From assembly GCA_903862715.1 (NCBI GenBank), contig CAIOYY010000057.1, positions 1 through 64,000 on the forward strand: a stretch of 64,000 nt of DNA, written 5' to 3'. The translations under genes and the position numbers were made by a program. Source of the stretch: an uncultured Alphaproteobacteria bacterium. Its GTDB lineage: Bacteria > Pseudomonadota > Alphaproteobacteria > Micropepsales > Micropepsaceae. The notes below the pieces were generated by a model. It was given only the letters and a program-made list of their open reading frames with translations, did not search any database and was not told the origin of the DNA. Shown here one piece after another: positions 2,780-5,507 of this stretch (within the stretch, counting starts at the first letter, position 1; every line of letters begins with the position of its first letter).

Positions 2780-2808
2780 TTGAAAGCTGTGTCATTCGTG
2801 CATATATT
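2780..2808 (+). promoter_or_regulatory. Near-consensus sigma70 promoter
   Basis: TTGAAA at 2780-2785 and TATATT at 2803-2808 are separated by 17 bases. No convincing coding region follows before the terminator at 2925-2961, so the promoter most simply drives a short non-coding transcript starting near 2815. Confidence 0.6.
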
Positions 2809-2814
2809 CATCTC

Positions 2815-2961
2815 GATGGGGCCAGGAAATGCCCGTTCGCAACGCCCCCCCCGCCAGCGAACAGCAAATGGTCTCATGGATATCGGTCATCCCCTCCCGA
2901 TATCTGCGCTTAAAGGCGCATTCGGCGGCCGGTCAGGAAACTGACCGGCCGCTTATTTTTT
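2815..2961 (+). ncRNA. Candidate small RNA with two C-rich hairpin loops and a Rho-independent terminator
   Basis: A transcript of about 145 nt is framed by the promoter just upstream and by the terminator. Three stem-loops are visible in order. The first is a 6-bp stem (2835-2840 with 2857-2862) whose loop holds eight consecutive C. The second is a perfect 8-bp stem (2879-2886 with 2897-2904) with loop TCATCCCCTC. The third is the 11-bp terminator stem. C-rich loops that can pair with Shine-Dalgarno sequences are known in small regulatory RNAs, including anti-SD hairpin families of Alphaproteobacteria. I do not recognise the sequence as a named family. A 3' UTR of the upstream ligase gene is the alternative. 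Confidence 0.5.
2925..2961 (+). terminator. Strong Rho-independent terminator
   Basis: A perfect 11-bp stem GCGGCCGGTCA / TGACCGGCCGC (2925-2935 and 2942-2952) with loop GGAAAC is followed by TTATTTTTT. It has no matching U-tract for the minus strand, so it acts on plus-strand transcripts: the candidate small RNA and probably read-through from the ligase gene. The 12-mer CGGTCAGGAAAC of its loop side recurs at 2973-2984. Confidence 0.85.
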
Positions 2962-2985
2962 GGGGTAACGGGCGGTCAGGAAACG

Positions 2986-3963
2986 TCAGGTCAGGCCGTG
3001 ATAGGCCTTGTACCATTCCACGAAACGCGGGATGCCCACTTCGATCCGTGTTTTCGGATGGAAGCCAAGGTCTTTCTCAATGCTGCTGATATCGGCCGCA
3101 GTCACGGGAACATCGCCCGGCTGCATCGGCAGCAAATCCAGTTCGGCCTTGCGGCCTAGAGCATTTTCGAGAACGGCAATCATTTCCATCAATCGTTCAG
3201 AACGATTGCCGCCGAGATTGTAGATGCGCTGCGGCGCGCTGCCGTCATCCCTTGGTGGTTTTGCGGCAGCCGCTACCACGGTCGGCGCGACATCATCGAT
3301 ATAGGTGAAGTCGCGCTGCATATCGCCGTGGTTGAACACCTTGATCGGACGGCCCGCGAGGATGGCGTCGGTGAACAGCCACATCGCCATATCGGGGCGG
3401 CCCCATGGACCATAGACGGTGAAAAAGCGCAGACCCGTTTGCGGCAAGCGATAGAGATGAGAGTAAGTGTGGCTCATCAGTTCGTCGCAGCGTTTCGTTG
3501 CGGCATAGAGCGAGACCGGTGCATCGACGCGATCGGATTCGGCAAACGGCACTTTCGTATTGCCGCCATAGACCGAGCTTGAGGAGGCGTAGACAAGATG
3601 CTCGAAAGCGTCTGAATGGCGGCAATATTCGAGAACATTGAAATGGCCGACCAAATTCGAGGCGATATAGGTTTCCGGATGGTCGATGGAGTAGCGCACG
3701 CCCGCCTGCGCCGCGAGATGAATGATTCGAGGAATTTTATAGGGCTTCACAGCATCGAGAAAAGCGGCACGGTCGGAAAGATCGATTTGATGAAAGTGAA
3801 ATCCTTTATGGACTTCAAGCGCGCGCAAACGGTCATGCTTCAGCTTCGGCGCGTAATAGTCATTGATATTATCGAGCCCGACGACCTCTTCGCCCTGCTG
3901 CAATAAAACGCGTGCGGTGTGAAAGCCGATAAAGCCCGCGGCGCCGGTAACGAGATAGGTCAT
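2986..3963 (-). CDS. NAD-dependent epimerase, UDP-glucuronate 4-epimerase-like
   Basis: A 325-residue extended short-chain dehydrogenase. The N-terminal Rossmann motif is GAAGFIGFHTA, followed by GLDNINDYYAPKLKHDRL, which is characteristic of the UDP-glucuronate/UDP-GlcNAc epimerase branch. The catalytic Ser lies in YASSSSVYGGN and the Tyr-Lys pair in SLYAATK. It would turn UDP-GlcA into UDP-GalA for polysaccharide or LPS. The ATG at 3963 is chosen over one nine codons earlier because GGAG lies nine bases before it. It lies 30 bases downstream of the phosphatase gene on the same strand, probably one transcript. Exact substrate is not provable here. Confidence 0.88.
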   Translation of the reverse strand: MTYLVTGAAGFIGFHTARVLLQQGEEVVGLDNINDYYAPKLKHDRLRALEVHKGFHFHQIDLSDRAAFLDAVKPYKIPRIIHLAAQAGVRYSIDHPETYIASNLVGHFNVLEYCRHSDAFEHLVYASSSSVYGGNTKVPFAESDRVDAPVSLYAATKRCDELMSHTYSHLYRLPQTGLRFFTVYGPWGRPDMAMWLFTDAILAGRPIKVFNHGDMQRDFTYIDDVAPTVVAAAAKPPRDDGSAPQRIYNLGGNRSERLMEMIAVLENALGRKAELDLLPMQPGDVPVTAADISSIEKDLGFHPKTRIEVGIPRFVEWYKAYHGLT

Positions 3964-3993
3964 GCATTTCAGCTCCGTCTCGCCATGCAACAG

Positions 3994-4587
3994 CTAAACC
4001 TTCTGCAACGCAATGAAACTTTTCCCCATGCCATTCAACTGGAGCCATTCGGCGAAGATCTCGGGCGCATAGATTTCTTTCAGCCATGTTGAGATGGACG
4101 TACCCTTGCTCGTCTCGCAGACGAATGCCGGAAAGTGCTGCATCCATTTCTGTTCGGCGCGCGGACGATGGAGAAAGGGCCAAAAGGAGAATTGTTCTTC
4201 GGCGGCCGCGCGCGCATTCACCCCACCCTGAAGAAGCAGATAGGTCGCGGCCGCGAAGCTTGAACGGTCCTGACCGCCGGAGCATTTCACGAGGAAAGGT
4301 TTCGGCGCCTGTTCCAGTGCCTCGGTCAATGCCACCAGCGAGGCGCGCGCCGGCAACATGCGCGAAGACAGGCGAACATCGAAATGGGTTATGCCGAGCG
4401 CGGCGGCGCTGCGCGTTTCCTGACGCCACCAGTACCGCGAAGCGTTTTCGCCGCGCAGATTGACGAGACCGCGAAACCCATGCGCTTTCAGAAATTGGGG
4501 GTAGAACCCGATATAGGGCTGCGCGGAACGGGCGACATCCGGCGTGACCCAGTGCAGATTATAAAGCCGGTCGAGAAGTGCCGCCAT
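3994..4587 (-). CDS. Dual-specificity / tyrosine phosphatase-like protein
   Basis: A 197-residue cytoplasmic protein with a Cys-x5-Arg phosphatase signature in KCSGGQDRSS (about residues 99-108), preceded by a beta strand (PFLVKC). The N-terminal VARSAQPYIGFYPQFLKAHGFRGLVNLRGE resembles the DSP/SiW14-type family. A general-acid Asp may lie in THFDVRLSS. It is co-directional with the sugar epimerase 30 bases downstream and close to the remnant of a tyrosine kinase, so a role in controlling polysaccharide synthesis is plausible. Whether it acts on phosphotyrosine or another phosphoester cannot be told. Confidence 0.75.
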   Translation of the reverse strand: MAALLDRLYNLHWVTPDVARSAQPYIGFYPQFLKAHGFRGLVNLRGENASRYWWRQETRSAAALGITHFDVRLSSRMLPARASLVALTEALEQAPKPFLVKCSGGQDRSSFAAATYLLLQGGVNARAAAEEQFSFWPFLHRPRAEQKWMQHFPAFVCETSKGTSISTWLKEIYAPEIFAEWLQLNGMGKSFIALQKV

Positions 4588-5440: not shown

Positions 5441-5507
5441 AAGGCGAGGGGAGATGGTCCGCCATCTTCCCTTTTTTATTCCCCTCAACCGCGATGCGGA
5501 GGGGAAT

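Follow-up and report, generated by a model that had tools for sequence, protein, structure and literature searches.

A probable RusT-type small RNA with C-rich loops in a Micropepsaceae genome, and its relatives between lolA and xth in Alphaproteobacteria

What kind of element lies between the genes for an O-antigen ligase (wzy ligase; positions 1250-2707, + strand) and an NAD epimerase (2986-3990, - strand) in the window, the whole 64,000-nt stretch of DNA analysed here, and on what would it act? An initial annotation had proposed a stand-alone small RNA (sRNA) with C-rich loops resembling anti-Shine-Dalgarno (anti-SD) sequences. The RNA begins ca. 110 bases past the stop codon of the ligase gene, on the same strand (Table 1). 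Beside the epimerase gene, positions 3994-4587 (- strand) encode a small protein with weak similarity, below the Pfam cut-off, to DSP-type protein tyrosine phosphatases.

Table 1. Coordinates of the sRNA gene and its parts in the window
Feature	Position	Strand	Basis
Promoter, TTGAAA (2780-2785)-17-TATATT (2803-2808)	2780-2808	+	read from sequence; kept in 45 relatives
Probable RusT-type sRNA, ca. 147 nt, predicted start near 2815	2815-2961	+	fold, covariance model, alignments
Stem-loop 1 (SL1), C8 loop (C at 2845-2852)	2816-2877	+	fold
Stem-loop 2 (SL2), stem GAUAUCGG/CCGAUAUC	2878-2905	+	fold
Stem-loop 3 (SL3), small GCGC/GCGC hairpin	about 2905-2920	+	near invariant in 46 members
Stem-loop 4, intrinsic terminator	2924-2961	+	sequence, fold, covariation

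All the parts that had been listed in the annotation were found, namely the near-consensus promoter, the two hairpins with a loop of eight C and a TCATCCCCTC loop, and the terminator, although the stem of the latter has 12 bp instead of the perfect 11 bp described, and the small hairpin SL3 had been missed. Folding of positions 2815-2975 rendered -77.5 kcal/mol (z = -4.69), which was equalled by none of 200 shuffled sequences. The lower stem of SL1 is formed by ATGGGGCCA/TGGTCTCAT and its upper stem by GTTCGC/GCGAAC; the SL2 loop at 2887-2896 (UCAUCCCCUC as RNA) is the presumed seed, and the terminator stem (GCGGCCGGTCAG/CTGACCGGCCGC, 2925-2952) is followed by a T-rich tract (2953-2961). The terminator loop of the window copy is GAAA (2937-2940), while it is C-rich in most relatives, so that a third C-rich loop appears to have been lost in this genome.

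By blastn the RNA was detected in 11 of 60 other sampled genomes, at least 10 of these being true by inspection, and a search of a collection of named genomes with the two-loop pattern rendered 69 loci (ca. 45 true by inspection), with homologues in Rhizomicrobium electricum (L054) and in two MAGs of the genus Rhizomicrobium; going by these names, the host would belong to the Rhizomicrobium (Micropepsaceae) group. An alignment of 46 sequences (A2) was used to build a covariance model (R1) of the host's family alone, containing, as far as known, no sequence from beyond it. R1 matched the window at 2805-2961 with E=1.4e-29, and matches were found in 92 of the 96 genomes of the order, normally as a single copy, and in 59 of 60 high-quality genomes. 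Pairing holds in 96.4% of the cells of A2, compared with ca. 33-40% in slid controls, and 21 of the 33 pairs show changes on both sides, with 165 doubly changed cells versus 42.9 in shuffles (0/500). Such double changes affect seven out of seven pairs of the main helix of the SL1 upper stem, and 9 out of 12 pairs of the terminator stem. The SL2 loop motif GGTCATCCCCTCCC is present in 45 of the 46 members, and the outer SL2 stem covaries; the C-run of SL1 is present in all 46, with a length of 5-8 and variable stems. Inside the host's family the C5-C8 loop of SL1 is conserved about as well as SL2. The promoter consensus of 45 relatives is A-rich/TTG[AC]AA-N2-TGTGGC-N5-TGCATAG-N-TT; the window spacer carries TGTGTC as opposed to their nearly invariant TGTGGC, with TGCATA at -10. 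Positions 2780-2961 thus hold a genuine stand-alone sRNA gene, far beyond chance. The original proposal is borne out by structure, covariation, distribution in the order and promoter conservation, and the covariance search in related genomes that had been suggested with it revealed abundant compensatory changes.

R1 also gave strong matches in other families of the class, where the gene order is fixed as ftsK-lolA-RNA-(protein of ca. 210 aa)-xth. In Caulobacter crescentus the place between lolA and xth is that of the gene of RusT (CCNA_R0199), an RNA of 118 nt with four stem-loops that is bound by Hfq at SL3; its seed is the SL2 loop (nt 45-57), in which C53 was tested by point mutation and compensation (PMC11005374). 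RusT is induced by iron starvation, is controlled by NtrX and represses TonB-dependent receptors and OmpW, and its homologues have been reported in Caulobacteraceae only (PMC11005374). Our Caulobacteraceae genomes (family f63) were picked by CtrA identity, with a CtrA query that served for genome ranking only. Their best R1 matches are the RNA between lolA and xth, at 22-34 bits; since these scores are modest and background matches of similar E-value occur in these GC-rich genomes, the argument for RusT is carried by position and not by score, and the comparison rests on Caulobacteraceae family members at the RusT locus rather than on the C. crescentus sequence itself. The SL2-type loop of these RNAs is AUCCCCUCCCGG, within UAUCCCCUCCCGG, and AUCCCCUCCCG is common to it and to the SL2 loop of the window, so that the seed is conserved; the window RNA also has four stem-loops, the last of which is the terminator. 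What the window copy has in common with the Caulobacteraceae RNAs at the sequence level is the SL2 loop and the terminator, with no more than weak traces in other parts, and the Caulobacteraceae copies are shorter and have no C-run in SL1.

With a second model (R2), built from 42 sequences of ca. 10 families, we searched 385 genomes of the class and obtained matches in 76 of them at E<=1e-5, under strict filters with few candidates scored, so that the lack of a match in the remaining genomes does not mean absence; R1 and R2 matches at E of about 1e-5 to 1e-8 are of mixed quality. As many as 52 of the 76 matches, in 25 families, are flanked in the same orientation by lolA on the upstream side, by xth on the downstream side, or by both (31 matches). 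These include several loci with lolA or xth 1.5-2.8 kb away and one (L145) whose lolA match, as far off as -5.2 kb, was counted as upstream, but which is also syntenic via xth. Sixteen of these families had provided no sequence to R2 (f2, f16, f37, f51, f53, f60, f64, f70, f80, f87, f95, f114, f128, f146, f156 and f167). The other 24 matches adjoin neither gene, two of them being f126 copies next to an aminotransferase gene and the rest unproven; synteny puts L131 and L140 in the lolA-xth slot and L137 outside. In nearly all the displayed syntenic members the SL2 loop is built around a C4 core, for the most part CCCCU. The terminator loop is C-rich in most of them, and in members from families other than Caulobacteraceae SL1 frequently bears an additional C5-C8 loop. 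The shared core of the class-wide RNA consists of the SL2 loop (usually with a CCCCU core), the small SL3 and the terminator. Between the sRNA and xth, an uncharacterised protein of ca. 210 aa is encoded at L143:6255-6902 (+ strand), with equivalents at L142, L144, L145, L147-L154 and L159; it is present in many of 20 loci compared, and the one protein tested had no Pfam match.

Because the best matches in Caulobacteraceae of a model trained on the host's family alone fall at the published position of RusT, and because the R2 matches are syntenic in so many families, most of them unseen by the model, we consider it probable (roughly 0.8) that the window holds the gene of a stand-alone, trans-acting sRNA of ca. 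147 nt, orthologous to RusT, that silences G-rich ribosome sites by means of C-rich loops.

The window copy itself has neither lolA nor xth as a neighbour. In the host's family (f1) several copies (L154-L157) lie downstream of a gene for a class-III aminotransferase, the order being aminotransferase-RNA-unknown protein in one genus (L154) and aminotransferase-RNA in another, and in f9 and one f126 genome it is aminotransferase-RNA-unknown protein-xth; these intermediate orders in f9, f126 and L154 chain the lolA-xth slot to the host's family. The window copy is thus a relocated one, the polysaccharide neighbours of which are not conserved. The RNA is retained in relatives while its neighbours change: in the host's family the neighbour is the aminotransferase gene, in the majority of the others lolA and xth. 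Since it relocates together with its promoter, the neighbours are uninformative about its targets, and the earlier suggestion of a local target among the polysaccharide genes is not supported.

As for its mode of action, the sRNA would be transcribed from its own sigma-70-type promoter and end at its own terminator, and its exposed C-rich loops would pair with G-rich (GAGGGG-type) ribosome-binding sites, reducing the translation of a set of mRNAs. SL2 would provide the chief pairing loop and SL1 of the host lineage the extra C5-C8 loop, while Hfq would assist, probably held at the 3' part of the molecule. By analogy with RusT (PMC11005374), we infer SL2-loop pairing, a need for Hfq, induction when iron is scarce, and envelope and TonB-receptor targets. 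Pairing through SL2 is suggested for the window RNA because the loop is invariant and the host genome has an hfq gene (E=9.2e-32). The natural reading of the SL1 loop is that it likely serves as a second seed. The TGTGGC of the promoter spacer (2786-2802 in the window, and 45 relatives) could be an operator, perhaps for NtrX. Sites similar to GTGGCA-N4-TGACAC precede the Caulobacteraceae copies.

The search for targets rendered leads but no established target. The starts of 14 TonB-receptor genes of the host showed no excess pairing compared with 51 genes of the window (p=0.30 for loop 2 and p=0.13 for loop 1). The host genome contains four copies of the 10-nt loop complement GAGGGGATGA, one of them being the RNA gene itself. 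An 11-nt match to the SL2 loop (L230, G000:C87:156436-156449) covers the ribosome site of a small His-rich gene that begins MAHHTHDGDHHDHSAH and is followed by a pntA-like frame, a candidate target. From its order before pntA, we take this gene to encode, probably, subunit IV of an aa3-type cytochrome oxidase; as the three remaining GAGGGGATGA sites do not exceed chance expectation, the start of this subunit IV-like gene is only a lead. A search of 96 genomes for GAGGGGATGA-N0-10-ATG rendered ca. 90 sites and no recurrent gene start, and those sites that do recur appear to be intragenic, i.e., inside coding sequence. By eye, many of the gene starts that match the 10-nt seed perfectly (L239, L246-L248, L253, L255, L264, L271, L285 and L298) look signal-peptide-like, as those of exported or envelope proteins would. 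The GAGGGGA that had been pointed out at the ribosome site of an acetyltransferase gene does exist (5499-5505), but the 64 kb contain six such motifs in all, the antisense of the sRNA being another of them; this 7-nt match would make the gene a putative target at most.

Two alternatives would deny the RNA a gene of its own. It could be the 3' untranslated part, or an attenuator, of the ligase mRNA, as its distance from the ligase gene and their common strand would allow; this is very improbable, given that its own promoter is kept in 45 relatives and that the upstream gene varies among relatives and families. Open frames do cross the region (2747-2944 and 2829-3089), but that it should be a small protein-coding gene is hardly credible: the hairpins are conserved with covariation, and in 46 relatives the C-run varies between 5 and 8 and gaps ignore codon phase, in keeping with the earlier judgement that no believable ORF is present.

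Other alternatives accept the sRNA and concern its ancestry or its action. The RNA might be a genuine conserved sRNA of the host's order that is not orthologous to RusT, C-loop RNAs having arisen independently and both slot and loop being convergent. Little sequence is indeed common outside SL2 and the terminator, and a short C-rich loop is easily evolved, alpha-r14/NfeR1 and CcnA being examples; nevertheless, a model trained on the host's family finds its best matches in one gene slot, family after family, intermediate gene orders connect that family to the slot, and the order of the four stem-loops is retained, so that an independent origin is quite unlikely. It can also be the case that the chief role of the C-rich loops is to bind a protein, or to titrate ribosomes or other RNAs in a sponge-like manner, and not to silence chosen mRNAs. 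No single target site is as well conserved as the loops, the 10-nt seed matches in 96 genomes gave no target that recurs, and most relatives have several C-rich loops per molecule. This possibility deserves a small place, although RusT has been shown experimentally to be a base-pairing repressor that acts through its SL2 loop (PMC11005374).

If the RusT reading holds, an sRNA described from Caulobacter and close kin has related RNAs, in the same slot, in 25 sampled families in addition to the host's. The seed core is kept almost throughout these families, and an Rfam model for the lolA-xth RNA is lacking (0 matches). As a class-wide sRNA, it would make the conserved seed, the link to NtrYX and iron, and the target set testable in many species, with R2 serving for annotation. 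The host lineage moreover reveals a second invariant C-rich loop, absent from the Caulobacter RNA. With somewhat less than even odds, the lolA-xth sRNA might be counted among the oldest trans-acting regulators of Alphaproteobacteria, descending from a multi-seed ancestor (SL1 C7, SL2 UCCCCUC, terminator C6) with two or three loops masking ribosome sites, from which RusT would have been reduced through loss of the SL1 seed.

The window and 48 related loci rendered no match above the Rfam gathering cut-off, and relaxed E-values gave chance-level matches alone. The initial annotation, which did not recognise the RNA by sequence, missed the RusT-type lolA-xth identity. In the open literature we found no other report of a lolA-xth sRNA. 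GsrN, CcnA, ChvR and alpha-r8 were excluded as identities by promoter, locus or loop type. Caulobacter GsrN likewise uses a C-rich 5' loop, of six C, to pair with G-rich sites on mRNAs, but has a sigma-EcfG promoter and is usually located near ecfG, nepR or phyR (PMC5869019), a slot different from that of the window RNA; no EcfG-type promoter was seen in 19 homologues scanned, the promoter of the RNA is sigma-70-type, and its neighbours are not those of the GSR locus. Caulobacter CcnA also has a CCCC loop, which binds GGGG in 5' UTRs, but it has 182 nt and lies at the replication origin beside hemE (PMC8959179). Sinorhizobium alpha-r14/NfeR1 resembles the window RNA in having several hairpins of variable stem, with an anti-SD motif exposed in each, yet it repeats one identical motif, CCUCCUCCC, three times and is Hfq-independent (PMC10746234), whereas the loops of the window RNA differ from each other and match no Rfam family. 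The alpha-r8/SisA-D RNAs have an anti-SD-like pyrimidine core, UUUCCUCCCU, but this is single-stranded and borne by multicopy siblings (PMC12559287), with no match to the window RNA. RusT is like it in the lolA-RNA-xth slot of most families, the four stem-loops ending in a terminator, the seed in the second loop, the own promoter and the trans-acting type, and differs in its length (118 versus ca. 147 nt), in lacking the C8 loop of SL1, in its host family and in not being sited between polysaccharide genes. On the strength of slot and description, the window RNA is therefore set beside RusT and filed as a longer, new RusT-type variant with an extra loop.
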